Shown in pieces: positions 3,536-29,363 of a stretch of 31,348 nucleotides of DNA. The position numbers and the translations under genes are program-made. Position 1 is the first letter of the stretch, and each line of letters begins with the position of its first letter. The notes under the pieces were generated by a model, which saw nothing but the letters and a program-made list of their open reading frames with translations, had not been told where the DNA came from and did not search any database. Where the stretch lies: the IMG/VR virus record IMGVR_UViG_3300022074_000223, positions 1 to 31,348 of that record, one strand, 5' to 3'. The DNA comes from a virus.

Positions 3536-6500
3536 TTACCTCTCTAATGCTCTAGTGTCGAGTTGACTATATACAGGAAAATAATCAAAAGCTTGTGCCT
3601 CACCTTGTAGTAAATTATAAGCTCTTTCTGCTCCGGGTCCAAGAATAGGAACAAGAGCAGGCTTTCCGTATCTTTTTTCTTCCATAACAAGTGGTAAAGC
3701 TAAAGCTCCTGGGCCTAACATACCGCTTCTATCTAAAACTTCAAACCAATATCTACCGTTTGACATATTTTTAGAGGCCCTATAGTTTACACCTGGGTCA
3801 TTTGGGTCTATACCAGGTAACATATAAGATAGACCTATTTTAAACCTTTCTCGCATATCCCAACCTAACATAGTCAAAGGCGTAAGGAGGGCAGCCCCAA
3901 AGAATAAAGGATATATAGCAGTAGGAAGTATTCCTGTTTCTCTATATCTAGTTTTACCTTCTCTGTACAAACCCCCCATTATATTCTTGCCATAAGCATA
4001 ATAAAAAGATTTAAGTTGCCACACTATCGCCCAATGCGGGTCAGAAGCCCAGATAGGTCTTTCTGCAGCGTTTGGTCTTACAATAGCTTCATCTACAAAC
4101 CTACCTAAAGCAGTTTTTACTTCAGGGTGAGCATCTATGTCTGCACCATTCCAATCATTAACTTGTTTAGCAGTTAATCCTAAATCTGCTAAATATCGTT
4201 TAGAAAGCATTACAACTTGATCTCCTTCATACCCTTCTTCTACTATTTTTGCATGTTTAAGTAAAAAGTCTCTCGCCATACCTGCTGCAAATTTTCTAGT
4301 AAACACAGTCCATCGTTCTAGTTGAGTTAACCTAAACCAACCATTTGTAGCTTTTTTAGCTATTAAAGACACCCCATCAAGTTCACCTGCATACAAAATA
4401 GTGGTAGCCATAGCTTCTCTACCATTTGCACCTATGTCTCTTGCTAGTTGTTCTGCTTCTCCTTTACCTAAAGCTTGGGTTACATTCTTAACAATTGTTT
4501 TTAATTCAAAGTCTCTGCTTCGTAAAATTGGCCCAGCCCCATCTGGTACAGATGCAAACACTGCCATACCTAACAAAGTAAGAACATTTAAAGTCAGCAT
4601 TCCATCATTTATATTACGCCACATATTAAAACGTATAGGATCTATTCTACCTAACATAGCGTTTACAGCTTCTTTTGCATGCCCTCGTTCTTCTTCTGGC
4701 AAAGCATTTATCAATTGTTTAATTCTTCTACCACCGCCTCTTTTTTGTAATTCTACTTGTCTAGTTACATCTCTTAAATATTCTAATATTGCTATTTCGC
4801 CCGGAGCAGCTAATCCTTCTTCTACAAGAGTAGGAGTGTTTAAATTTTCAAAAAGTCTGGCTCTTGGGACAGGCATTCCTAAACCATGTCCAGAAGAATC
4901 ATCTTTTTCTACAGTCGCATCTGGATTCTTTTCATTGTTGGATATCATCTTTTCTACTTGTTTAACTATGTAGTTAGGGTCTTTTATTTGCGGGTTTGCT
5001 TCTATTAAAAGTTCAATAAGTTTTGCTTTCAATTTAGGGTTAGAAGCAATTTCTGCTACTAAAATAATACGAGGGAAAAAATTAGGTCTTCTTTTAATTT
5101 TTCTTTTTTCAAATTCCATTGTTTCAAAATTAACTGCCGTAATTTCATATTTGTCTAACTCTAAAATATCATAAACATCAAAAAGAAATTTACGTATTAT
5201 CTTTGCTCTAGGGGATAAAGCTTCAGTTGGCTTACGTTCGTCTTGCGCTTCTCTAAAAGCATCTATCTCTTCTTGGGTAAAAGAACTATCGTATATACCA
5301 GTTACAGCTTGTTTAATTTGATCAAATCTTCCAACTTCTTCTTTAGGCTCCATGTTTAAATCATTAACTAGCTTGTTAACTAATTCATTTAACGACCTAT
5401 TAGCTTCGTTTATAAACCCGGGTTCTCCAGTTTCCCCGCTTACTTTATGAAATATTTGACCAAGTTCTTTGCCTACGCCTGTGTCTTTACCTAAAGTGTC
5501 TAAAAAACCACGTGCGGTAAAGAAAAGTTTTGTAAGCCAAGAAGGCATTTTGCCACTTTTTACCATATTGTCTGCGTCTTTGTTAATTTTTCTTATAAAT
5601 TTTATGCTTGTTTTATTACCAAACATACTATCTATTAACTCTTCTGCATGAGCTCTTTCTGTAAAACTCATGTTATCAGTAGCTTCTTGCAGAGTTCTAT
5701 CTCTTAGCCCTTGTATAAACTCTCCTACCGTTTCATCATAAGTAAATCTTCCTTGATAGAAATCATTAACATCCATAACTGCATCTAATTTAGCTTCCCC
5801 TGATTGCTTTTTTAAAACTGGGTTTTCTTGAACTACTGAAGCCATAAAATTACTGTTTACAATTTCTTTAGCTTTAGCATTGTAAAAAGCATTCAAAGCC
5901 TTTGCCATAGTGTTTGCATAGTTGTCTACTATGTTGTTAGCTTTTAAAACAACACCTTTTTCTAAATCAAATAAACCTGAAGAAACTTTATCTACAAAAA
6001 ATTCTTCAAACCCATTTTCTTCAAAATACTGATGACCAGTCAGCCCTTGTTTTTCAAGTTCTTTTTTTGCTTGTTCAAAATTTTTCATAAAAGCTCTTCT
6101 CAACAAAGGATTTTTTAAAACTTTGCCCATTTCAGATCTAAAGAAACTATGCCCTACTTCATGTCCTAATATAAGAGTAAGGAGACCAGTATCATAATCA
6201 GTTAAAGCCTCTGGGTTATTTAAAACAATAATATCAAAAGTTTTAAATACATTTTGCATATAAGCCCCAACTCCTGTACCGGGACCAGCACCTTCTTTAA
6301 CTTCATTTAATTTTCTATTTAAATCTATTATCATATCTTCAAATGTCGATAATTTTTGATTATTAGCTGCTGCATAAGCATTATATGCTGCTAAATATCT
6401 TTCAGCTTCTTGTTTAAAAGCAGGCACCTTATTTATAGTTGCTGTCAGATCTATAGTTTCTTGTCTAGTGTACAGCAAAATAGGTCTGTTCATTTTTAAG

Positions 6501-9500
6501 TGTTTTTTTGCAAGTTTACCTATTGTTAAAAAGTATTTTTTTGCTTCACTTGAGGTATTAGCTTCTAAAGCAGCACTAAGAAAAACTTTTTCTTCTGTTT
6601 TGATTGGTTTTTCATCTACTGTTTTTGTTTCTTGTTTTACTGTTATTTGACTTCTACTAAGGGGCTGTTTGTTATATTGCTCTAGCTCTCCATCCCAATA
6701 TTTTTCTTGTGTCTGGTCTCCTTGAAAATCTCCTTGTATGCCTTCATTAGGATTAGTTGTGTCCTCTATATCAGCTCTAGGGTCTAATGTTGTACTACCG
6801 CCTGCTACTTCTGCTTGTCGTAAAGCAAACTCTAAATCATTACGTTGAATATATAAATTAGCAGCAGTGTTTCTTTTGCCATTTTTTTTAGGGCCGTAAA
6901 GTTTATTAATTACGTCTATAAACTCATCGTACTGGTTATCTATAAATTCACCTTGTTGTTGGTCTCGCAAAGTTGCAAAATCTTTTAATTCTTTTTCTAA
7001 AGCTTCTATTTCTTTAGTTTTTTCTTGTATTTGATTTTCTAAACCTTTTACTTCGCCAAGTGTAGGCTGTTCGCTTATTCCCAAAGATTCTTCAGCGCCC
7101 CTTGCTACTAAATCTCCTAAACCTAGTTGAACTTCTCCTTGTTGTTCTGTAACTACTACAAAATCAGGATCTTGCAAAGATTCATCTGTAATTTTTTCAC
7201 CTTTAAATCTAAGCTCGTAATCAGGGTCTTCTTCAAAAGTACCGAAAACACTAGTAAAGCTATCCGCCAAAGATTGGTAATATTGATCATTAGAAAGAGC
7301 CCCCATTCTAGCTAGAACTTTTCTATACTCTCTAACAAGTTTAGGCATATCAATACTTTGAGGCATACTAAAATTACCGTCAGGTTCTCTAGTAGTTACA
7401 GTAAATAAACTGTCTGCGAAACCTTCTCGCACTTCTCCAGTGTTAGGGTCTACTACTCTTTTCTTTTTTCTACCGGTTTGTTTAGCTCTTCGTACAATCC
7501 TATCAAACTCAGGTTTAGCTTGTTCATAAGATTGTAATTTTTTTAAAGGCTGTTCATATTTATTTATTACGTAACCTTCTTCTTGAGGGTCTATTTTATA
7601 TACTAATTCAGTATTATTGTCTGTATCTATTTCTCCAAATCTATCTACTCGTTTTATAAATTCTGTTAATAAAAGCCTAGAATAGTTATTCTCATCTATG
7701 TTTTTATCAAACTCTTGACGAAAATCTGGGTGAGTAGCTAATCTAGCATTTTTAATTAACTCAGAGGGAGGTGTTTGTTCTTTTATAAATTCTGGATTTG
7801 GTTTAGTCCAAGGTTGTTTATTTCTGTTTAAAATTGATTTTTCGTTTTCTTTTTTAACGGGTAGTACACGCACGCCGTCTTCCACTATTTCAGAAGCTTG
7901 TGCAAACCTTCCAGTGTCATCTCTAAGACCTGTTGTGCCTTCTGGGTCTATTACATTACCAGTTCCCATAACTTCAGCTGCTTCTTCTTCTGATAACAGA
8001 CTCATTTGCCTTATGGTCCCTACATCATCTAAATCAACTGCAGGGGTATCTACTAAACTTTGTCTTTCATCTAAATGTTCTTGTGCTTCTACAATCTCAT
8101 AACTGTATTTATCTGAATTATTAAATAGCTTTTTAGCATTTTCAAGATGTACGCCGCCGTCTTCTTTTGGGTCTCCTGTTTGGTGGTAATGCACAAGTGA
8201 ACCTGTTTCTTTGTTTCTAACTTGCACTACCCATTCGTCTGTGTTTCGTCTACCTCTTGGGTATCCTAATATTTCAACTAAAGTATTTTCTAAAAGCTTT
8301 GTGCTAGGCATATTGTTTTCCATAATTCTTTGGAATCTTTCTACTACGGTTGGATCAGTAGAAAACAAAGTACCACCAAGTTGACTATCTTCATCCCCCA
8401 TTTCATAACGAAAAACACTACCGGGGCTCCTTAATACTAAACCTTCTGTTTCTTTTTCAAATTGAGCAAGTTCATCTGCACTATTAATATCTACCCAAAC
8501 TGCTTTTTTATCGTTGTCTGGATCTAGCATGGCCTCAAACTGGTCTTCAATCCATTGTTTAGGTTCTATTTGAACTCCGGCGCCTTCTGGCCCATACTTC
8601 TGTCGCACCATATTAATCAAGGCGTCTCTGCCTTGGTAATCATCTAAAAGATTTTGAGCTTTAGAAGTTGCGCCTTGTATAGAAGCACCACCAATACCAA
8701 AAGTTACACCAGCAGTTAAACCAGCTAAAGCAGATACACTTCTATCAAGATTGGCTTGTTGTTGGGTATATTTTTTATCTAGTTGTCCATCTAAACGAGG
8801 GTCTAACCTACCCATTTTTTGTTGTACTTCTAACTCTGTCTGTAACAGTTCTGTTATTGGCTCTCCAACTGTGCTAATCCCTAACGCCTTAGCCATACCA
8901 GGTAAAGCACTTGGCCTAGGCATATTTTTACCAGCTGGAGTTAAAACAGATTTACGTGCGGTGGTTTTAGCAAAGTTGTTTAGTAAACTTCTTAACACAA
9001 TCGTTTCAGTTGCTCCGCCAATAGCCGCGCTAAGTCCACCCTGTCCAATAGCTAAAGCAGCACTAATTGGATCATACTTATCTTGGTCCGCATAATTTGC
9101 AAAAGCAGTACCAATCCCTCTAGGAGCTTCACCTCCAGTTATACCAGCAAATTGTCCTATTGCAGTTCTTTTGGTCAAAACATTTTTTTGATACTGTTTG
9201 TAAACAGCTTCCATAATTTCTTTTTCAGCTTTTGTTAAACTTTTTTGAGCAGCTGCTTTACTTACAGCATTAGCGATTGTGGTCTTTGAAAAATTTTTAA
9301 AAGCTAATTGTTTTGTAAGTTTATTTAAACTTTTTTTACCCGCAGCCGTTGCAGTCCCTCCAGCCATAAGACCCGCAAGGCCAATCGGAACAGTTGCTGG
9401 TGCAGTATAAATAGCTGCTGCTGTTCCTATTAAGGCTCCTGTTATGGTAGTTAGAGCAGATAAGCCTACTTCACCAATTGTTGCAGGGGCTGCTCTGTTC

Positions 9501-9898
9501 CAAAACTGTTCAAAAGTAGGTTCTTCTATAAACTTTTCCCACTCTTTAGCCATGTCTAAAGCTCCAACAACATTTGCAGCTTCTTCTTGGTCTTTTACAC
9601 CTTTCATAACAAACTTTTTAGCTCGTTCTTCGTTGCCTACAAGAGCATTAAAAGCTCCTCTTGTGTAATTAATATCAGCTGCAAACTGTTTGCCGCCTTT
9701 TTGAAAACCAGTTGATATTCTACGACCCCCTTGGGCTTCTATTTGAGATAAGAGTTCTGGGTCAAAACTTGTGTCGACAGCACCACCACTAACTTGATCA
9801 AGTTGTTTTTGAAAGGAAGGAATAGGGTCGTAGCCAGATTTAGCTGATGTATCTTCTTCGTTTTGAGATTTTATAAAATCTAGTATAGGATCTGACAC
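3536..9898 (-). CDS. Giant 2120-residue polyvalent virion protein with zincin metallopeptidase motif
   Basis: Start is GTG at 9898, with GAAGG about 6 nt upstream and no other credible start nearby; the stop of the preceding gene is 2 nt away. Hydrophobic Gly/Ala-rich segments lie near residues 145-186, 275-300 and 385-408, and again near 1760-1780 and 1990-2010. A heptad-rich coiled coil lies around 945-985. Residues 1246-1250 are HEVGH, the zinc-binding HExxH motif, with a FEEFFVDKVSSG segment (E1298/E1299) downstream that can supply the third ligand. The C-terminal 400 residues resemble the large polyvalent-protein-associated domains seen in giant phage proteins. Length and position after three internal virion proteins match podoviral ejection proteins (analogous in place to T7 gp16). 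It is likely injected with the DNA. No lytic transglycosylase or RNA polymerase motif was seen. Confidence 0.75.
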   Translation of the reverse strand: MSDPILDFIKSQNEEDTSAKSGYDPIPSFQKQLDQVSGGAVDTSFDPELLSQIEAQGGRRISTGFQKGGKQFAADINYTRGAFNALVGNEERAKKFVMKGVKDQEEAANVVGALDMAKEWEKFIEEPTFEQFWNRAAPATIGEVGLSALTTITGALIGTAAAIYTAPATVPIGLAGLMAGGTATAAGKKSLNKLTKQLAFKNFSKTTIANAVSKAAAQKSLTKAEKEIMEAVYKQYQKNVLTKRTAIGQFAGITGGEAPRGIGTAFANYADQDKYDPISAALAIGQGGLSAAIGGATETIVLRSLLNNFAKTTARKSVLTPAGKNMPRPSALPGMAKALGISTVGEPITELLQTELEVQQKMGRLDPRLDGQLDKKYTQQQANLDRSVSALAGLTAGVTFGIGGASIQGATSKAQNLLDDYQGRDALINMVRQKYGPEGAGVQIEPKQWIEDQFEAMLDPDNDKKAVWVDINSADELAQFEKETEGLVLRSPGSVFRYEMGDEDSQLGGTLFSTDPTVVERFQRIMENNMPSTKLLENTLVEILGYPRGRRNTDEWVVQVRNKETGSLVHYHQTGDPKEDGGVHLENAKKLFNNSDKYSYEIVEAQEHLDERQSLVDTPAVDLDDVGTIRQMSLLSEEEAAEVMGTGNVIDPEGTTGLRDDTGRFAQASEIVEDGVRVLPVKKENEKSILNRNKQPWTKPNPEFIKEQTPPSELIKNARLATHPDFRQEFDKNIDENNYSRLLLTEFIKRVDRFGEIDTDNNTELVYKIDPQEEGYVINKYEQPLKKLQSYEQAKPEFDRIVRRAKQTGRKKKRVVDPNTGEVREGFADSLFTVTTREPDGNFSMPQSIDMPKLVREYRKVLARMGALSNDQYYQSLADSFTSVFGTFEEDPDYELRFKGEKITDESLQDPDFVVVTEQQGEVQLGLGDLVARGAEESLGISEQPTLGEVKGLENQIQEKTKEIEALEKELKDFATLRDQQQGEFIDNQYDEFIDVINKLYGPKKNGKRNTAANLYIQRNDLEFALRQAEVAGGSTTLDPRADIEDTTNPNEGIQGDFQGDQTQEKYWDGELEQYNKQPLSRSQITVKQETKTVDEKPIKTEEKVFLSAALEANTSSEAKKYFLTIGKLAKKHLKMNRPILLYTRQETIDLTATINKVPAFKQEAERYLAAYNAYAAANNQKLSTFEDMIIDLNRKLNEVKEGAGPGTGVGAYMQNVFKTFDIIVLNNPEALTDYDTGLLTLILGHEVGHSFFRSEMGKVLKNPLLRRAFMKNFEQAKKELEKQGLTGHQYFEENGFEEFFVDKVSSGLFDLEKGVVLKANNIVDNYANTMAKALNAFYNAKAKEIVNSNFMASVVQENPVLKKQSGEAKLDAVMDVNDFYQGRFTYDETVGEFIQGLRDRTLQEATDNMSFTERAHAEELIDSMFGNKTSIKFIRKINKDADNMVKSGKMPSWLTKLFFTARGFLDTLGKDTGVGKELGQIFHKVSGETGEPGFINEANRSLNELVNKLVNDLNMEPKEEVGRFDQIKQAVTGIYDSSFTQEEIDAFREAQDERKPTEALSPRAKIIRKFLFDVYDILELDKYEITAVNFETMEFEKRKIKRRPNFFPRIILVAEIASNPKLKAKLIELLIEANPQIKDPNYIVKQVEKMISNNEKNPDATVEKDDSSGHGLGMPVPRARLFENLNTPTLVEEGLAAPGEIAILEYLRDVTRQVELQKRGGGRRIKQLINALPEEERGHAKEAVNAMLGRIDPIRFNMWRNINDGMLTLNVLTLLGMAVFASVPDGAGPILRSRDFELKTIVKNVTQALGKGEAEQLARDIGANGREAMATTILYAGELDGVSLIAKKATNGWFRLTQLERWTVFTRKFAAGMARDFLLKHAKIVEEGYEGDQVVMLSKRYLADLGLTAKQVNDWNGADIDAHPEVKTALGRFVDEAIVRPNAAERPIWASDPHWAIVWQLKSFYYAYGKNIMGGLYREGKTRYRETGILPTAIYPLFFGAALLTPLTMLGWDMRERFKIGLSYMLPGIDPNDPGVNYRASKNMSNGRYWFEVLDRSGMLGPGALALPLVMEEKRYGKPALVPILGPGAERAYNLLQGEAQAFDYFPVYSQLDTRALER

Positions 9899-9900
9899 GT

Positions 9901-12210
9901 TTAGCCTTCATCTGATTTTGGTAAATCTGTATCGCCGATTGCATCTAAATTTTGCATTAGCCAGTTTAATTCATCTCCAGTGATTGAACCATTTGATATA
10001 AATTTAGCTAGCTCTACGGATTCCTCTAATTCTTCTCCGCTTGCTGTGCCTTTTGCTACTATCTCTACAGGTTTACCCTCTTCATATCTAATAGCCATAA
10101 CATCTTTAAGGTTGTTTACTAAAGCAGCACCACTTAAATCATTAGCCCAAACATCCCCCCAATAATCACTTAAAGTTTGCCCGCCTCGTAAAGCACCTTT
10201 TCCTGCAACATTTCTAAGTAAAGGTATTCCTCCAAATATAGCGTTCCAAATAGTTTCGTCATTTTCTAAAGAGTTAAATACTTTTTGCAAAATAACTTCT
10301 TCTTGCATTTGTTTGTGTTCGAGATAACGCCCCGGTTGTGCATAATTGTAGGTGTATATATTATGACCATCTTTGTTCCACATTTTTTGTAAATTAGCTT
10401 TTGCCGTTTCATCATCTCCTGCAATAGCTAAAAATGCTGCTTCAGCAGTGTCTACATATTGTTTACCTAACTCATTTTTTCTTGAAGCATTGTAATAATC
10501 TAAACTTATACTATCTAAATCATTAACAAACACACGGAACTGAGTAGCTTTTTCAGGCATTTCTGGGTCTCTTCTACGAGTTGCGCCACCCATTTTCATT
10601 ATTTCTCTTAAGTTTTGAGTTTGTGTTACAAAATCAATGCCGCCTTTTTTGTTATAATCACCAGTTTTTAATTTTGCTGTATTGTCTGTAAAAGTACTAT
10701 TTATTGTACCAAAGGCACCTCTAACTCTTTCTGTCTCATCCAAAGCTAAACCGTTGTAATATTCTTCTTTCTCAAAAGCAAACTCTGCCCATTCTAAAGC
10801 ACTTGCATTTTCTTCTTTAAGCCTAGTAGTCTGTGCTTTATAGAAATCAGTTTTTCCGGTTTGTTCTGCAGTGTCTGCTGTTTGTCCTGCACGTAATTCT
10901 GCGCTTCTTTGGTTTTGCGCGGTAGCTAAACCTGTAAAAGCTTCTGTTCCTCCACCTGCTACACCACTATAGAAGTCGTTGAAAACACCATCAGTGGCTT
11001 CTTTTGGAGTTTGGCCATTTGGTAAAACTAACTTACCACTAGCATCTGGTCTAGCTGCAACAGTATTTATAAGTAAAAGTTCTTTATACTGTTCAGCAGG
11101 ATTTTTGCCTTCGTCTTGACGTTTTTTTAGTAAATCTGGAGTAGAAGCAATTCCTTCTACTTGTAAATCTTTAAAAATTTGACTTTGTTGTGCGTTACTT
11201 ATTTGATCAAACTCTCCCGTTTTAACTAATCTATCTATTTCATTTGCTAAAGTTTCACCATCTAGCCCTACAAGGGAAGGATAAGCTTGCTCAAAAGTTT
11301 TAGGTGCGCCTTGAACGCTTACCATAACATCTTGTTCACTACCTGGTACTATTGTTGGGTCTTGCGTAGAAGCCGCTACTTCTTCAGCTGCAAATTTAGG
11401 GTTAGCATTATATATAGTTTCTAAATTTTGTAAGAAAGCATGTGTGGTGCCCCTACCTACATTTTCATCAAACACACCTGTAACAAGCTCACCATAATCC
11501 ATATCACCCGCGCCACCTACACTGCTTAAGTCAAAAGTATTTCTTTTTTCTACTCTTCCAATTTCTCTTGATCTATCAGGTAAAAGCCTATCTGCATCCA
11601 TATTAAATTTGTCTACTCTTGCTTGTAGGCCAGCTTCTATTTGGCTTTTTGTATAAACTGTAGGAGTATCGTCTGCTTTATCTGTTCCAAAAAAATTAAG
11701 CAAGCTAAATCTACCTTCTTGGTTGATTGCAGGAGTTACATAACCTTGTAAAGTACCATTTTCATATTGTTTTTTTAATTCAACAGCGTTAGCATCTCCG
11801 GCAGCAGCAGCTTCCATAATAGACTTAGGCACTGCTCCGCTTTTTGCTGGAGTCGGAGCAAACACTTGTTTGTTTTTCTTTTTAATAAGTTTACCGTCTT
11901 GTTCCCCATGATATTGACCCATCATTTCGTTCATCAACAAAGAATTAGAAACACCTGTTCGATTTCCTTTAGTAAGACCCCCCAGCTTATCTACTGCATC
12001 TACATTTAAAACAATATTTCCATTATTTTCCTCTGTGACAATACCAGCCCCTTTAAGAACTTCTAAATCTGCGTTCCACTTCTTTAACTCATCATTTTCT
12101 CTTAATGTTTCTCTTGCTAATTGATTACCAAGCGCAGTCGTTTGAGCTTGTTCCATACCGCCGACCACTTGGCTACCGGCTAAAAAAGAATTCATAGGGT
12201 TAGTTGCCAT
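9901..12210 (-). CDS. Internal virion protein (putative), 769 residues
   Basis: ATG at 12210, one nucleotide after the stop of the preceding gene. The sequence is hydrophilic, largely alpha-helical in character, rich in Asn, Gln, Glu and Ala, and has no transmembrane segment or catalytic motif I recognise. The N-terminus (MATNPMNSFLAGSQVVGGME) is of the kind seen in podoviral core proteins. Size and place, between two small Ala/Gln-rich proteins and the giant protein, match the middle internal core protein of T7-like virions (gp15 position). That is an argument from synteny, not from sequence similarity. Confidence 0.55.
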   Translation of the reverse strand: MATNPMNSFLAGSQVVGGMEQAQTTALGNQLARETLRENDELKKWNADLEVLKGAGIVTEENNGNIVLNVDAVDKLGGLTKGNRTGVSNSLLMNEMMGQYHGEQDGKLIKKKNKQVFAPTPAKSGAVPKSIMEAAAAGDANAVELKKQYENGTLQGYVTPAINQEGRFSLLNFFGTDKADDTPTVYTKSQIEAGLQARVDKFNMDADRLLPDRSREIGRVEKRNTFDLSSVGGAGDMDYGELVTGVFDENVGRGTTHAFLQNLETIYNANPKFAAEEVAASTQDPTIVPGSEQDVMVSVQGAPKTFEQAYPSLVGLDGETLANEIDRLVKTGEFDQISNAQQSQIFKDLQVEGIASTPDLLKKRQDEGKNPAEQYKELLLINTVAARPDASGKLVLPNGQTPKEATDGVFNDFYSGVAGGGTEAFTGLATAQNQRSAELRAGQTADTAEQTGKTDFYKAQTTRLKEENASALEWAEFAFEKEEYYNGLALDETERVRGAFGTINSTFTDNTAKLKTGDYNKKGGIDFVTQTQNLREIMKMGGATRRRDPEMPEKATQFRVFVNDLDSISLDYYNASRKNELGKQYVDTAEAAFLAIAGDDETAKANLQKMWNKDGHNIYTYNYAQPGRYLEHKQMQEEVILQKVFNSLENDETIWNAIFGGIPLLRNVAGKGALRGGQTLSDYWGDVWANDLSGAALVNNLKDVMAIRYEEGKPVEIVAKGTASGEELEESVELAKFISNGSITGDELNWLMQNLDAIGDTDLPKSDEG

Positions 12211-12211
12211 G

Positions 12212-12748
12212 TTAAATCATAAAGGCTGCTAATAAAGCAGAGCCTAATTGGCCTCCCATACCTATCATTTGTGCGCTATGTTGCGCTTTTGCGTTTTTGT
12301 AAGCTTGTTGTCTTTGGCTTTGTAGCCCAGCAGCTGTGTTCATTTGAGATAGAGCGTTTCTATTTAAACCTTGTCCAATATTTATTAGATCAGCTAAGGT
12401 AGATTGATTAATTTCTCTTTGCGCTAACCTTGCATTATTAAGAGACCCTACGCTAGCTAAACTACCGCCCCTTTGCATGGCCCTTTGTTGTTCTTGCTGT
12501 TGAGCATTAGATAACCCAGCACCCCCATACCTTTCTAAGTTACGGGCTTGTACCCCTCTAGCTATCTCTGCTTGTCTTGCAGAGTCTTCTCTAGCTTGAT
12601 CTATAAGAGATGTATCATCTCTAGCTTTTAACAAAGCTTCTTCAAAACCTCTAAAGTCTCTTATGTAATTATCATAATCGTCTCTAGCCATACCTGCGAA
12701 TACGCTTTGTGGGTCGTTAACATCCATTAAAGAATCTATAGTAGCCAT
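12212..12748 (-). CDS. Small internal virion protein, Ala/Gln-rich
   Basis: 178 residues, ATG at 12748 overlapping the previous stop by one base (TAATG). The acidic N-terminal third (SLMDVNDPQSVFAGMARDDY) is followed by a long helical region rich in Gln, Arg, Ala and Asn with heptad character. The end is an apolar stretch (MIGMGGQLGSALLAAFMI) that could insert in a membrane. A helical body with a hydrophobic tail fits the small ejection proteins of podoviruses (T7 gp14 position), which form the outer-membrane part of the ejection channel. Function is inferred from place and composition. Confidence 0.55.
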   Translation of the reverse strand: MATIDSLMDVNDPQSVFAGMARDDYDNYIRDFRGFEEALLKARDDTSLIDQAREDSARQAEIARGVQARNLERYGGAGLSNAQQQEQQRAMQRGGSLASVGSLNNARLAQREINQSTLADLINIGQGLNRNALSQMNTAAGLQSQRQQAYKNAKAQHSAQMIGMGGQLGSALLAAFMI

Positions 12749-13353
12749 TATGTTCCCGTAAATCCTCCTGTAGTTAAATAGTTACCAAGACGTTTAAAAC
12801 CTTCTGATGCATCTATACCACCATCAAAAAACCCTCTACCTGCTTGTTTATTAATAATTCCTTGCCCAATAGTAGCACCAGCTAATTGAAACCCTGCGCT
12901 TTGTCGAGACTCTCGCATCATCTGTCTTCTTTTTGCTTGTTGTAAATTTTCACTTGCTTCTATTCGAGCAACATTAGCTAAACCAGTTGTAGCGTCTGCT
13001 TGTTGACCCCTTGCAGTAGCTAAAACCCCAACTTGTCTGTTTCTTTGTGCTGCTAACCCTTGGCTTCTAGCTTGGGTTTGTTGGCCCACTGCAGCAGAAA
13101 GCAAATCAGCTTGTGCATCAACAGACTTAGCAGCAGCAAGAGATGGCTTAGAAGTTAACGCTTGCATAGTATCAGCTTGCGCTTTACCGGCTGCATAATC
13201 TCCATAATTTTCTTTCATAGAAATATCGCGCATCTCACGCAACAAAGGAGAGTATGTCTGATTAAAGTAATCTTTTTCAGCTTTTGCTACTTTAGCCTGT
13301 ATTTTTTCAGCTTCGGTAGCTTCAAAATCTGACTTTGGTGGTTTACTACTCAT
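12748..13353 (-). CDS. Small internal virion protein, Ala/Gln-rich (second)
   Basis: 201 residues, ATG at 13353 overlapping the preceding gene by 4 nt (ATGA). A charged N-terminus is followed by a long Ala/Gln/Arg helical middle (for example SAAVGQQTQARSQGLAAQRN). The C-terminus is Gly-rich (QLAGATIGQGIINKQAGRGFFDGG). Composition and layout are like those of the next gene, 12212-12748, so the two may be distant paralogues or paired subunits of the internal core. No enzymatic motif is visible. Expressed as part of the tightly coupled virion operon. Confidence 0.5.
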   Translation of the reverse strand: MSSKPPKSDFEATEAEKIQAKVAKAEKDYFNQTYSPLLREMRDISMKENYGDYAAGKAQADTMQALTSKPSLAAAKSVDAQADLLSAAVGQQTQARSQGLAAQRNRQVGVLATARGQQADATTGLANVARIEASENLQQAKRRQMMRESRQSAGFQLAGATIGQGIINKQAGRGFFDGGIDASEGFKRLGNYLTTGGFTGT

Positions 13354-23486: not shown

Positions 23487-23691
23487 TGGGGTATATCTTG
23501 TAAATTTTTTGTTGAAAAAATTTTTTTTGAAAAATATGAAATATATCGCTCATACATCTTCTCCTCTATCATCACAGACCGCACCCCGACCCCGAACCGT
23601 TTTCCGTTTACACTTTGTCGTTTCAGTCATTGGAACCTTGTTTTGGTTTTTTGACCCTGGTCCATGTCCCATGTCCCACGCTTCTATGTTT

Positions 23692-23714
23692 ACTACTATC
23701 ATGACTACTATCAT
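23692..23714. repeat. 12-bp tandem repeat
   Basis: ACTACTATCAT occurs at 23692-23702 and again at 23704-23714, separated by a G. It stands just left of the palindromic cluster. Confidence 0.85.
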
Positions 23715-23746
23715 CACGCATGTATGAGCTTACATCATCATGCGTG
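23715..23746. repeat. Inverted repeat CACGCATG/CATGCGTG
   Basis: Perfect 8-bp arms at 23715-23722 and 23739-23746 enclose 16 nt; an alternative inner pairing TGTA/TACA also exists. There is no T run, so it is not a terminator. Confidence 0.8.
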
Positions 23747-23750
23747 GAGA

Positions 23751-23848
23751 ATGTTCCGTTGGTTCCACGGCTCTAACCCCATGTGGAACCAGTTCGTGGA
23801 ACCACGACAAAGCTATACAGGATATAGCTTTGCTTGCCAACGGAACAT
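23751..23848. repeat. 12-bp inverted repeat enclosing two hairpins
   Basis: ATGTTCCGTTGG (23751-23762) pairs perfectly with CCAACGGAACAT (23837-23848). Between them lie TTCCACG/CGTGGAA (23763-23769 with 23795-23801) and a perfect 10-bp hairpin, CAAAGCTATA/TATAGCTTTG (23808-23832, loop CAGGA). Together they can fold into a three-way, cloverleaf-like structure in DNA or RNA. Confidence 0.85.
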
Positions 23849-23895
23849 GTTCGGTTCCATGGTTCCGTTTAAATCAAAACAGAGTTTTGTAACGG

Positions 23896-23934
23896 ACCGT
23901 GGACCACGGTTAATGGTTAAAGATTAACTTAACC
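23896..23934. repeat. Two adjacent inverted repeats
   Basis: ACCGTGG-A-CCACGGT (23896-23910) is followed by a nested hairpin. Its outer arms are GGTTAA (23908-23913) and TTAACC (23929-23934). Its inner stem is GTTAA (23916-23920) and TTAAC (23924-23928), with an AGA triloop. Confidence 0.75.
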
Positions 23935-24035
23935 TAAAACTAATGGAACCAGTGGAACCATAACCTAGAACCAGCATTCTTACAGCGTTATTTGTGTTCC
24001 ACGACTCGTGGAACCAAGTGGAACCAGTGGAACCA

Positions 24036-24060
24036 CAGATAGCTCGTCCCGAGCCATCTG
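24036..24060 (+). promoter_or_regulatory. TCC-triloop hairpin 1, candidate N4-type promoter
   Basis: CAGAT-a-GCTCG-TCC-CGAGC-c-ATCTG: a 5-bp GC-rich stem on a TCC triloop, extended by five more pairs beyond one mismatch. It lies 35 nt before the first rightward gene. The strand that would be template has GGA in the loop. The core CTCGTCCCGAG recurs at 24353-24363. The hairpin is certain; the promoter role is a hypothesis. Confidence 0.4.
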
Positions 24061-24094
24061 TTCTCTAGTTAGGTATAAATATAAGGAGTATATT

Positions 24095-24283
24095 ATGAAA
24101 CCAAATGATTATGATTTTTATCGTTCTTACTATATCAAACAGCAAATAGCTCGTATTGATAAAGTATTTGCTAACGCTTCTCAAGAAGAGCTTGAAGATT
24201 CTTGGCAAGGAGACAGCGAGTTATACCAACTCCAAGCAGAACGCGAATATTGGATGAAGAAGCTTGTTAGTCGAGTTACTTGA
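24095..24283 (+). CDS. Early small protein, 62 residues, unknown
   Basis: Start ATG at 24095 is chosen because AAGGAG lies 7 nt upstream; an in-frame earlier ATG (24008) sits inside the repeat array and is rejected. The protein is hydrophilic, rich in Tyr, Gln and Glu (for example YDFYRSYYIKQQIARIDKVF), and helical in character with no membrane segment. I recognise no family. First gene of the rightward block; small host-takeover proteins are common in this position. Confidence 0.7.
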   Translation: MKPNDYDFYRSYYIKQQIARIDKVFANASQEELEDSWQGDSELYQLQAEREYWMKKLVSRVT

Positions 24284-24290
24284 TTCAGTT

Positions 24291-24333
24291 GAGAGAAAGT
24301 AAACTTTCTCTCGCTCGGCACTTTGCAAGTGCC
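24291..24333 (+). repeat. Two perfect hairpins in early spacer
   Basis: GAGAGAAAGT/ACTTTCTCTC (24291-24312, 10-bp arms separated by AA) and GGCACTT-TGC-AAGTGCC (24317-24333). The second is flanked by direct repeats TCGCTCG at 24311-24317 and 24334-24340. No T run follows either. Confidence 0.85.
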
Positions 24334-24343
24334 TCGCTCGTCG

Positions 24344-24371
24344 ACAGTTGACCTCGTCCCGAGGCAACTGT
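24344..24371 (+). promoter_or_regulatory. TCC-triloop hairpin 2, candidate N4-type promoter
   Basis: ACAGTTG-a-CCTCG-TCC-CGAGG-CAACTGT: a 12-bp stem with one bulged A and a TCC triloop. It is followed by GTTTTTT at 24378-24384, 7 nt after the stem. It has the same 11-nt core, CTCGTCCCGAG, as hairpin 1. It lies 44 nt before the next gene. A weak terminator is an alternative reading because of the nearby T run. Confidence 0.4.
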
Positions 24372-24414
24372 TCGTGAGTTTTTTATCTATTAATTACATT
24401 ATAAGGAGTAAATT

Positions 24415-24651
24415 ATGTATTCAAGATATATATTAATCCCCGGTAAAGACGGGAAACAAAGGTCTCGAGAGATTGGGACTGCAACTACTAACAAAGACGG
24501 AAGTCTAACTTGTTGGGATGATGTCACTGTACCAGTTGACCCAACCAACGGCAGACCATACCCTGTCTTTATGAGAGAGATTGTGATGAAGGAAGCTTCA
24601 GCACAATCAACAGCCAGCAATGGCGTTCAACAAGAGTTACCAGTAGCGTAA
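24415..24651 (+). CDS. Early small protein, 78 residues, unknown
   Basis: ATG at 24415 with leader ATAAGGAGTAAATT, nearly identical to the leaders of the genes on either side. The N-terminal half looks beta-rich (MYSRYILIPGKDGKQ, then REIGTATTNKDGSLTCWDDV); the C-terminal part is polar and probably disordered (EASAQSTASNGVQQELPVA). No family recognised. The stop codon lies inside a perfect 10-bp hairpin (24631-24657). Confidence 0.7.
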   Translation: MYSRYILIPGKDGKQRSREIGTATTNKDGSLTCWDDVTVPVDPTNGRPYPVFMREIVMKEASAQSTASNGVQQELPVA

Positions 24652-24725
24652 CTCTTGTAGCTACCATGTGAGCTAGGCACATGGGGGTTGTTACCGAAAG
24701 CACACGCTCGGATGAAAAGCCGAGC
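24631..24725 (+). promoter_or_regulatory. Three hairpins across stop codon and spacer
   Basis: CAAGAGTTAC/GTAACTCTTG (24631-24657, 7-nt loop) spans the stop codon at 24649-24651. CCATGTG/CACATGG (24664-24684) and GCTCGG/CCGAGC (24706-24725, 8-nt loop) follow. None has a T run, so they look like RNA-stability or processing elements rather than terminators. The rest of the 105-nt spacer holds only the next leader. Confidence 0.6.
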
Positions 24726-24756
24726 ACTAATATTCAATCTTATATAGGAGTAAATT

Positions 24757-24999
24757 ATGAATATATTGTATGGAACTGCTAGCTTGTTTGGAAAAGCAGC
24801 TAAGCTAATTGTATCAATGACATCATCTTCAACATCTAGTGTTGTAAATGGTTTCAAACAAGGCTATACAGGTCAACCGCAACAAGTTACAAGACCTGGA
24901 ATCAAGCCTGTGTATAGACAAGAAACACCTGTTCAACAGGAGTTTGACTTTGCACATCCACAAGGCATTGATACATCAAAAATAGACAACGCTATCTAA
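24757..24999 (+). CDS. Early small protein, 80 residues, unknown
   Basis: ATG at 24757 with leader ATAGGAGTAAATT, of the same type as the two genes before it. The N-terminus is mildly hydrophobic (MNILYGTASLFGKAAKLIVS) and could be an amphipathic helix. A Ser/Thr-rich patch and a polar, Pro/Gln-rich tail follow (KPVYRQETPVQQEFDFAHPQ). I know no family. A strong terminator begins 15 nt after the stop, closing this first early unit. Confidence 0.7.
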   Translation: MNILYGTASLFGKAAKLIVSMTSSSTSSVVNGFKQGYTGQPQQVTRPGIKPVYRQETPVQQEFDFAHPQGIDTSKIDNAI

Positions 25000-25013
25000 T
25001 AGTGTTGTTTACT

Positions 25014-25049
25014 AAAGGGAATGTTATTTAGGTAGCATTCCCTTTTTTT
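25014..25049 (+). terminator. Strong intrinsic terminator
   Basis: AAAGGGAATG (25014-25023) pairs with CATTCCCTTT (25036-25045), loop 12 nt, and the T run continues to 25049. It ends the unit of three small early genes. Confidence 0.92.
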
Positions 25050-25108
25050 ATGTTGTAGCAGTGCCAACAACAGCCAGTAATAATGTGCTTGCCTGAGTGA
25101 GTAATGTG

Positions 25109-25133
25109 CACTTACTACATCCTGTAGTAAGTG
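25109..25133 (+). promoter_or_regulatory. TCC-triloop hairpin 3, candidate N4-type promoter
   Basis: CACTTACTACA-TCC-TGTAGTAAGTG: a perfect 11-bp stem on a TCC triloop, placed between the terminator at 25014-25049 and the next gene (start 25178), exactly where a new promoter is needed. There is no T run after it, so it is not a terminator. Confidence 0.45.
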
Positions 25134-25177
25134 TTATTTAAAGCAAGTGTAATTTTTGTATACACAAGGAGGTAAAC

Positions 25178-25342
25178 ATGTGTATTGAAGAGGTGAGTAT
25201 CCCTACTGAGGTGCTCAAACAAGCCGAAGCAAGCGAAATGCGTGCGCGAGCTGATTATGTGAATTCTGGTGAGTATCTAAAAGAGCTCATCAGAAGAATA
25301 GAACTAAAGCCAGAAGGAGGTAATTATGGCAGATCATTTTGA
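25178..25342 (+). CDS. Ribbon-helix-helix DNA-binding protein, 54 residues
   Basis: ATG at 25178 with a consensus AAGGAGG about 6 nt upstream; stop TGA at 25340-25342, overlapping the next gene by 17 nt. Residues 4-40 show the RHH plan: strand EVSIPTE, helix VLKQAEASEMRARA, turn with DYVNSGEY, then helix LKELIRRIEL. This resembles ParD/CopG-type antitoxin and repressor proteins (compare the usual ..G.Y.s.SE.iReaLR pattern). No toxin gene follows, so a phage transcription regulator, as Arc and Mnt are, is more likely than a toxin-antitoxin pair. Confidence 0.65.
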   Translation: MCIEEVSIPTEVLKQAEASEMRARADYVNSGEYLKELIRRIELKPEGGNYGRSF

Positions 25343-26105: not shown

Positions 26106-26112
26106 ACTAATG

Positions 26113-26132
26113 GGGGACTTCGGTCCCCTTTT
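26113..26132 (+). terminator. UUCG-tetraloop terminator
   Basis: GGGGAC-TTCG-GTCCCC followed by TTTT (26129-26132), 7 nt after the stop codon. The U tract is short, so readthrough into the next gene, whose Shine-Dalgarno site starts 8 nt later, is likely. Confidence 0.75.
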
Positions 26133-26152
26133 CTATTCCAAAGGAGGTTAAC

Positions 26153-27606: not shown

Positions 27607-28257
27607 ATGAAAACAGTTAGATTATCTGAACAGCTTAAACGCGATATTACTGACAATGCTGAAAAGAAATACAAAACAGCTAACCCTACAAAAGATTATC
27701 CAAGCGATGGTTATCAAGTTCTTAATGACCATGGCGTAATAGATAAGTCTAATCGAACACAAGAGATGTTCAAAACTATTTGGGGTTATGACTGTCCAAC
27801 AAAAGTTGTTGATGATGTAAGACTTACAGCTAATATCATAAAAAAAGACTACCATGGTGAAGAGTATAAAGATGAAGAATCTTTTACCGTGCCTTGTGGT
27901 TCTGTAGATGTGCCTAGTTTTCTTGTAGATTATGGTACTTTGAAACTTAAAGTTGAGCCAACAGATCCTACAATTGTAGAAGCTATGCAAGTTAAAGACT
28001 TTAATGATAAAAGATATGACAAGATGAAAGCTCAAACAATGAAACTAAAGGAAGTTATGAGTAGATTTAGTACTTTAAATCAACTAATTAAAGCTGCTCC
28101 TTATATCAAAGATCTTGTTCCACAAGAAAAACTTACAAAAATGCACGAAGCAGACGATCGTACAGCTAGACGTAAAGAGCTTGCAGAAATTGCAGACAAT
28201 GAATTACAAGATTTACGTGAAACACTGCTTGAAGATGCACTACTTGGAGATGATTAA
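27607..28257 (+). CDS. Unknown protein, paralogue of 30154-30969 product
   Basis: 216 residues, ATG at 27607, lying between the ATPase and VWA genes. The N-terminus VRLSEQLKRDITDN matches VQLSQRLKENIVDN of the later gene. A C-terminal segment TLNQLIKAAPYIKDLVPQEK matches TLKQFLDDVPGGSSLVPKED, and both proteins end in (L/M)GDD. The middle is beta-rich with FTVPCGSVDVPSFL. No family recognised. Its stop overlaps the VWA start by one base (TAATG), so it is made together with that protein and may be its substrate, adaptor or inhibitor. Confidence 0.75.
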   Translation: MKTVRLSEQLKRDITDNAEKKYKTANPTKDYPSDGYQVLNDHGVIDKSNRTQEMFKTIWGYDCPTKVVDDVRLTANIIKKDYHGEEYKDEESFTVPCGSVDVPSFLVDYGTLKLKVEPTDPTIVEAMQVKDFNDKRYDKMKAQTMKLKEVMSRFSTLNQLIKAAPYIKDLVPQEKLTKMHEADDRTARRKELAEIADNELQDLRETLLEDALLGDD

Positions 28258-29363
28258 TGAATCAATTATTTGTAAAAGCTAGATCTCGTCTGATACTAGA
28301 CAGTCCGTTCTTTGGTACTTTGTGCCTGCGACAAATACCTACAGAGTGGGAAGAACAAACAGGCGCTGTAGATGGTAAGCATTTGTTCTACAATCCTAAA
28401 TGGTTTGAAAAGCTTACAGAACTAGAACGTGTGGGCTTTCTAGCGCACGAAGTTATGCATCTTGTTCTTATGCACCACACCCGTAGACAAGAACGTAACC
28501 CACATAAATGGAATGTAGCAGCTGATTACGCAATCAACAATCATTTGATTGCAGAAGGTTTTATTCTGCCGAAAGGCGGACTTGTAGATGATCAGTACAT
28601 TGATATGTCTACCGAACAAATTTACAATCTTCTACCGGAACCTCCTTCGGGCTGGGACTCAGAATTTTGTGATGCCGGTAAATGTGGCGGTGTACTGGAC
28701 GCTGCAGGATCAGACGGTACAGCTGCAACACAAAGTGCTATTGAATCTGAACTACAAGTTGCAATCAATCAAGCTGCAGAAGCAGCAAAAGCTCAAGGTA
28801 AATTGTCCGCAAACATGGAGTCTATTGTTACTGATGTAACAGATCCAAAAGTTGATTGGAAAAATGTGTTAGCTAGGTTCTTACGTGCTAACAATAAATC
28901 AGACTTTACTTGGCAACGCCCAAACAGAAGATTTATTGGTCAAGGTATGTATTTGCCATCATTGCACAATCCTTGTCTTGAACAGATTGCAATTGCTGTT
29001 GACACATCAGGTTCTATATCTGAAGAAGAACTAACACAATTCACTACAGAAACTTCGTACATTCTGCATGATCTTAATCCTGAACGTATACAATTTATAC
29101 AATGCGATGCAGAAATAAACGAAACAACAGAATACACACGTGAATCGTTGCCACTTAAAGTTACCTACAAAGGCCGTGGTGGTACAAGCTTTGCGCCAGT
29201 TATTGATTATGTCAATGAGCATCATCCTGATGTTGCTGCTCTCGTGTATCTTACTGATCTCGAAGCTTATCAAGACGACTTTGGAGATAAACCACATTAT
29301 CCAGTTCTTTGGGTAACAACTAATGCTGAGGAGGCACCTTATGGAGAAATTATCAAAATGTAA
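28257..29363 (+). CDS. Zincin-like plus VWA domain protein
   Basis: 368 residues, ATG at 28257. Residues 64-68 are HEVMH (in FLAHEVMHLVLMHHTRR), the HExxH motif of the putative metallopeptidase domain found in this family. The C-terminal third is a VWA domain with a full metal-ion-dependent adhesion site: DTSGS (D249, S251, S253), T310 in GRGGTSF and D334 in YLTDLEA. This two-domain plan matches the DUF2201-type proteins paired with MoxR ATPases. Acting with the ATPase at 26582-27598, it probably remodels or cleaves a protein complex. Its last 23 nt overlap a membrane-protein gene. Confidence 0.88.
   Translation: MNQLFVKARSRLILDSPFFGTLCLRQIPTEWEEQTGAVDGKHLFYNPKWFEKLTELERVGFLAHEVMHLVLMHHTRRQERNPHKWNVAADYAINNHLIAEGFILPKGGLVDDQYIDMSTEQIYNLLPEPPSGWDSEFCDAGKCGGVLDAAGSDGTAATQSAIESELQVAINQAAEAAKAQGKLSANMESIVTDVTDPKVDWKNVLARFLRANNKSDFTWQRPNRRFIGQGMYLPSLHNPCLEQIAIAVDTSGSISEEELTQFTTETSYILHDLNPERIQFIQCDAEINETTEYTRESLPLKVTYKGRGGTSFAPVIDYVNEHHPDVAALVYLTDLEAYQDDFGDKPHYPVLWVTTNAEEAPYGEIIKM

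Follow-up and report, generated by a model that had tools for sequence, protein, structure and literature searches.

What reads the three hairpins that precede early genes in this phage? The window, meaning the whole stretch of DNA analysed here, is a 31,348-base IMG/VR phage fragment in which virion genes run leftward and early genes rightward out of a divergent region near 23.5–24.0 kb. All three hairpins, of a family called class A below, lie on the plus strand in early-gene leaders. The first (24035–24061, ACAGATaGCTCG[TCC]CGAGCcATCTGT) belongs to e1 (24095–24283, plus strand, 62 aa, no family), the second (24344–24371, ACAGTTGaCCTCG[TCC]CGAGGCAACTGT, with one bulged A) to e2 (24415–24651, plus strand, 78 aa, conserved in near relatives), and the third (25109–25133, CACTTACTACA[TCC]TGTAGTAAGTG, a perfect 11 bp) to e4, a 54-aa gene read from the sequence at 25178–25342 on the plus strand and overlapping the start of e5. 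Gene e3 (24757–24999, plus strand, 80 aa) has no class-A element directly upstream. The stems are 11–12 bp long, and the 3′ ends of hairpins 1, 2 and 3 stand 33, 43 and 44 nt from the ATGs, with ribosome-binding sites of the AAGGAG type. From each hairpin to the ribosome-binding site runs a downstream box (24062–24086, consensus TTNNTNAGTNNGTTRTATT; 24372–24405; 25134–25168; all plus strand), described by column counts over 21 elements.

Chance does not readily produce such an arrangement. When the window was shuffled 1500 times with its dinucleotides preserved, triloop hairpins of equal quality averaged 0.24 per shuffled window, against 4 in the window itself; TCC/GGA triloops were expected at 0.0033 per shuffle, against 3 TCC loops observed, and three hairpins with a common loop appeared in 0/1500 shuffles. 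All three fold as single-stranded DNA (z about −4 to −7). Tested as intrinsic terminators, they have no T tract, with TTATTTAG or TTCGTGAG downstream instead; an uninterrupted T tract is present in the true terminator that precedes hairpin 3 (25014–25045, plus strand). Sigma-70-like sites are not above chance in the region (13 found, 23 expected from shuffles). The original prediction had described three TCC-triloop hairpins shortly upstream of rightward early genes, the third after a strong terminator, with no evident sigma-70 promoters, and on all these points it was borne out.

The surroundings hold other structured sequence. A second recurrent stretch at 24660–24727 (GTTACCGAAAGCAC-stem-GGATGAAAAGCC-stem) is of a type found before e4 or e6 in most relatives, with changing stems and no Rfam family. 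A terminator with a TTCG loop (26112–26138), conserved in relatives, ends about 15 nt 5′ of e6, so that transcription of the AAA/VWA operon has to pass through it, and attenuation or antitermination there is possible. Between TerS and the early genes, the divergent region (23600–24035) carries many TGGAACCA/GTTCCACG repeats, possibly origin or regulator sites, and a long inverted repeat at 23808–23832, upstream of the leftward genes and with a minus-strand loop TCCTG (CAAAGCTATA/TATAGCTTTG), could be a leftward counterpart of the hairpins. The DUF2201 metallopeptidase/VWA protein at 28257–29363 has homologs that many GenBank phage records label HNH or homing endonuclease, which is likely a misannotation. 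Among the relatives, G003 (L046:7869–14592) and others encode a collagen-repeat tail fibre followed by a protein with PLOD-type, family-25 glycosyltransferase and 2OG-Fe(II) oxygenase domains, and phage-encoded collagen hydroxylation and glycosylation is possible there, judging from the domains. A 583-aa CHASE2 and adenylate/guanylate cyclase protein (G003, L047:8053–9804; G002, 34272–36032) is conserved across these phages.

The VWA protein, used as query, gave 41 loci, and 14 contigs were read essentially in full. Pattern scans added L084–L087 and L089 to class A, and a covariance model (R1) added three more elements in L085; R1 matches were confined to class-A contigs except for one weak match in L008. 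The class comprises about 20 distinct hairpins from six contigs of related uncultured phages, nearly all of them 33–100 nt 5′ of a ribosome-binding site and ATG, and some overlapping the 3′ end of the preceding gene. At sites homologous to those of the window, G002 has TCC hairpins with compensatory stem changes; its counterpart of hairpin 3 (AGTCGCTACA[TCC]TGTAGCGACT) shows several, and in hairpin 2 a T–A to A–T compensatory change is found in G002, L084, L085 and L089. Hairpin 1 (24035–24061) has an A.C mismatch on the plus strand, which is a G.T wobble on the minus strand, and its homolog in L085 has a perfect stem and an ACC loop. A strictly TCC loop, the first idea, was ruled out by L085. 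The check proposed in the original prediction, covariation of the stems around a constant loop in relatives, was clear-cut for the stems: 94.3% of cells are paired against 76 ± 2 in shuffles, double-change cells number 24 against 6 ± 1.9, and the covariation score is 0.551 against 0.207 ± 0.032 (0/500 shuffles). The loop is nearly constant, NCC and mostly TCC, but ACC, CCC, ACCC and TCTCC (3–5 nt) also occur. Invariant or nearly so are the CC of the loop and a G 12 nt past the loop centre, and most copies contain a defect, either a mismatch or a bulge, close to where the inner 5 bp end. A −10-like hexamer at fixed spacing, with its second A in just 10 of 21 elements, is too weak to serve as proof of sigma-70 promoters.

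Where class A is missing, near relatives carry at these sites a class B, in which a fixed GTCGC-TN(N)C-GCTT sits inside a covarying 5-bp outer stem (CGCCA/TGGCG, CGCGA/TCGCG, CGTCA/TGACG, CGCTA/TAGCG). Class C, read by eye, has CAT[C/T]-ANA-[G/A]ATG on variable outer stems in four copies in G008, and L008/G021, whose ejection block lies outside the contig, may hold a fourth class. Leader hairpins are fewer in G006, G007, G009 and G010, which were left out of classes A–C, and phiA008 has no clear repeated hairpin. None of the genomes examined combines A and B, the class being uniform within a genome; small early genes have been exchanged between A and B phages along with the local hairpin class, and L089 carries a duplicated hairpin cassette.

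Whether these elements are selected as DNA or as RNA can be approached through their imperfect pairs. RNA helices tolerate G.U and do not tolerate A.C. On the coding strand, the 220 class-A pairs include 2 G.T and 2 A.C, and the 70 pairs of the class-B outer stems include 0 G.T and 3 A.C. Because G.U is nearly absent and A.C no rarer, the pattern favours selection on DNA, and it suggests that the hairpins are read as DNA.

According to the original prediction the reader would be a diverged N4-type polymerase, encoded elsewhere in the genome as a large protein with T7-like motifs. A complete genome was available for this search: contigs G016, G026 and G027 overlap at 99.95–100% identity over 2–17 kb and close the class-A genome of the P85 phage. 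PF00940 at E≤1 gave no match in the window, the P85 contigs or 14 other contigs; T7 and N4, added as controls after 14 control genomes had given nothing, did match (T7 RNAP 1e-110, N4 gp16 1e-14, N4 vRNAP 0.007). An HMM built from seven vRNAPs and searched against every ORF matched three held-out divergent vRNAPs (E 1e-72 to 1e-98) and nothing in these phages, including the complete class-A P85 and the complete class-B G003, and the polymerase searches found no RNAP in KPP25 and phiA008, the nearest isolates examined. The 2120-aa giant virion protein was considered as a hidden RNAP and rejected: it has neither motif B nor motif C and no RNAP homology, does not match the HMM, and gave no profile match in an hhalign comparison whose G027 row is another long protein rather than the giant virion protein of that contig. 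An AlphaFold model of its C-terminal 899 aa (pLDDT 51) was too poor for a fold search. The original prediction had itself named a complete genome with no single-subunit polymerase as speaking against it, and no T7- or N4-type RNAP was found in one although the positive controls matched. What stands of it is a set of genuine hairpins with covarying stems and a nearly constant loop, in fixed orientation 5′ of early genes, but not the N4-type polymerase, and since these phages do not have that enzyme, something else must read the hairpins.

Four contiguous minus-strand genes at 3536–13353 form a block that co-segregates perfectly with hairpin class. They encode the giant virion protein (3536–9898), in the position of N4 gp50 (vRNAP); a 769-aa protein (9901–12210), in a position like that of N4 gp51; a 178-aa protein (12212–12748), like N4 gp52 in position and size; and a 201-aa virion or ejection-block protein (12748–13353). 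The order and sizes (178, 769, 2120 aa) match the gp52-gp51-gp50 ejection cassette of N4 (PMC12633501). When about 34 genes were tested for association with class in up to 10 genomes, these four alone had every within-class similarity above every between-class one. Permutation gave 1/105 for the giant gene, 1/280 each for the 769-aa and 178-aa genes and 1/35 for the 201-aa gene, floor values that are each the minimum possible and are carried by eight related, non-independent genomes. Hairpin class is not reflected in the capsid, TerL, portal, AAA, VWA or replication genes. Homologs of the 769-aa protein were found only in class-A phages and in contigs with the early region unseen. The association is sharpest in close pairs: the window phage (A) and G001 (B) are 93–97% identical in capsid, portal and TerL (TerL 97%), and P85 (A) and G003 (B) 98–99% identical in replication proteins, and both pairs switch hairpin class and ejection block together, the four block genes of the window phage and P85 resembling class-A phages only. 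Simple linkage is not the cause, because the 13.4–23.5 kb stretch that separates block and hairpins shows no such agreement with class. Support is good both for the hairpin family and for its connection with the ejection block.

Our preferred reading, with a probability of about one in three, takes the hairpins for repeated control elements of the early genes that work as DNA and are read by a factor ejected from the virion, in concert with the host polymerase. Every element combines three parts: a tip specific to its class (here the NCC loop with a short inner stem), an outer stem that covaries, and a short conserved box ahead of the ribosome-binding site. A protein or complex that is ejected from the virion and enters with the DNA would recognise the hairpin, either extruded or as a palindrome, and once bound would help host RNA polymerase to start early transcription there. 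Covariation, class switching with the ejection block, the few G.T pairs, the lack of an RNAP and the hairpins of KPP25 support a virion-borne reader. Against it stand the lack of any recognised DNA-binding domain in the ejection proteins, the finding that N4 gp51 and gp52 form envelope channels (PMC12633501), the weak −10-like hexamer, the eight non-independent genomes and the fact that ejection proteins also track host range. A more specific version is more doubtful: it would be an address code, in which the ejected protein recognises the class-specific hairpins that precede the phage's own early genes and guides host RNA polymerase there, with the result that ejection proteins and hairpins must match and switch together.

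Close behind the virion-borne reader, though tentative in its own right, comes a role as RNA leader hairpins, which would regulate translation, stabilise or process the mRNA or form an antitermination site of the nut type, with the ribosome or an RNA-binding factor as reader. Location suits this well, as most copies lie 33–100 nt 5′ of a ribosome-binding site, a conserved single-strand box follows the hairpin, in some cases the element overlaps the preceding gene's stop, and read-through must occur at the terminator 15 nt 5′ of e6. A G-U-tolerant covarying helix would be the mark of such a leader; here covariation is strong but G-U is almost nil and A.C no rarer, the hairpins give no match in Rfam, and the tracking of class by the virion ejection block alone is left unexplained. 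Host-linked selection, third in rank and rather unlikely, would explain that tracking by a host factor that reads the element, with hairpin class and ejection proteins both following the host taxon. One expects ejection proteins to differ from one host envelope to another; since they track host range, both hairpin class and ejection block could be set by the identity of the host, which would produce the association observed. However, where core proteins are 97–99% identical, the hosts of the phages are probably close relatives too, and so large a difference in their expression machinery is not to be expected.

We think it improbable that the elements are double-stranded operators, that is, imperfect palindromes centred near −38 of weak host promoters and bound by a dimeric regulator. 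The dyad centre does lie 26 (A) or 28 (B) nt 5′ of a TATATT-like hexamer, with no −35 element and with symmetric stem changes, but the half-sites vary almost freely around a constant, asymmetric centre, the reverse of a palindromic operator. Little can be said for recombination joints, in which mobile intergenic cassettes like T4 PeSL would shuffle small early genes with no specific reader. That A and B phages swap these genes with the local hairpin class, and that L089 has a duplicated cassette, would be expected of such joints, yet copies in one genome differ in stem sequence, which makes them poor homology tracts, and hairpin class is uniform within a genome. Just as improbable, and largely refuted, is the view that a diverged single-subunit RNA polymerase of the phage uses the hairpins as N4-type promoters. 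Pointing that way were the triloop with its template GGA, the early location, a −8 base that is nearly constant and the N4-like order of the ejection cassette. However, searches whose controls matched find no RNAP either in the complete class-A genome or in complete relatives, −8 is C rather than G, the closing pair is reversed, the stems reach 11–12 bp, the transcription start position is buried in the stem and the loop is not always three bases.

N4 has so far been regarded as a singular case of a virion-borne protein reading DNA hairpins. The present family does without such a polymerase, yet its hairpins follow the same logic and fall into several interchangeable classes, every one of them linked to its own type of ejection module. 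Should that linkage prove causal, phages would have a new way of switching on their genes, and virion and genome would have to fit each other like lock and key, which would restrict recombination and superinfection. The idea can be tested in the culturable relatives KPP25 and phiR18.

Several known systems invite comparison. KPP25, a cultured P. aeruginosa phage (L083:24021–24342), has two 9-bp C(GGA)G hairpins about 40 nt 5′ of its first two early genes, where base composition would give about 0.01 in 50 kb; both recur unchanged in phiR18 and R4900a. Sequences of the d(GCGNAGC) type are stable DNA minihairpins, and the heptamer GCGNAGC, the core of N4's promoter, is found on the class-B template strand as GC-GN(N)A-GC and on the KPP25 coding strand as GC-GGA-GC; the class A of the window, in contrast, does not close its loop with C-G. 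T4 PeSL are mobile regulatory cassettes with a terminator and a strong sigma-70 early promoter, and resemble class A as repeated intergenic stem-loops before exchangeable small early genes, but the class-A hairpins have neither terminator nor sigma-70 promoter. The CUUCGG leader hairpins of T4 and phage 7-11 are also intergenic and before phage genes, but differ in loop, act at the RNA level, tolerate G-U and show no class switching (PMC8948821). In the Schitoviridae LUZ7 and LIT1, three proposed hairpin promoters, each with a 4–5 nt stem and 3-nt loop, likewise precede early genes (PMC3715699); those phages carry vRNAP and RNAPII, whereas class-A phages have neither.

With N4 itself (promoter features from PMC4496689) the likeness to P1–P3 consists of hairpins with a coding-strand TCC or TTC loop and a covarying stem 5′ of early genes, template GGA, bases that hardly vary at matching positions (−11, −8) and a three-gene ejection cassette in the same order. 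The central template G at −11 is found, the coding-strand centre being C in all TCC, ACC and CCC copies, with L008 (TAC) the exception. Where N4 has a 5–7 bp stem and a 3-nt loop, 3/3 window copies have a triloop on an inner 5-bp stem, but class-A stems total 11–12 bp and have a built-in defect. The class-A closing pair is R–Y (G–C or A–T) and not C–G; −8 is C, as the original prediction had read it, and not G, in 12 of 13 aligned copies; and the C(GNA)G-closed GC heptamer with G at −8 is absent from class A. The positions of the A4 template spacer and of a start 11 nt past the loop centre fall in the class-A outer stem, and several loop classes exist among close relatives of class-A phages. 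N4's early promoters are read by the virion RNA polymerase gp50, and class-A phages are without such a polymerase. On polymerase, −8 base, closing pair and spacing, then, the class-A hairpins are not N4 vRNAP promoters; by analogy, their logic may nonetheless be N4-like, that of a virion-borne factor reading DNA hairpins, minus N4's polymerase.
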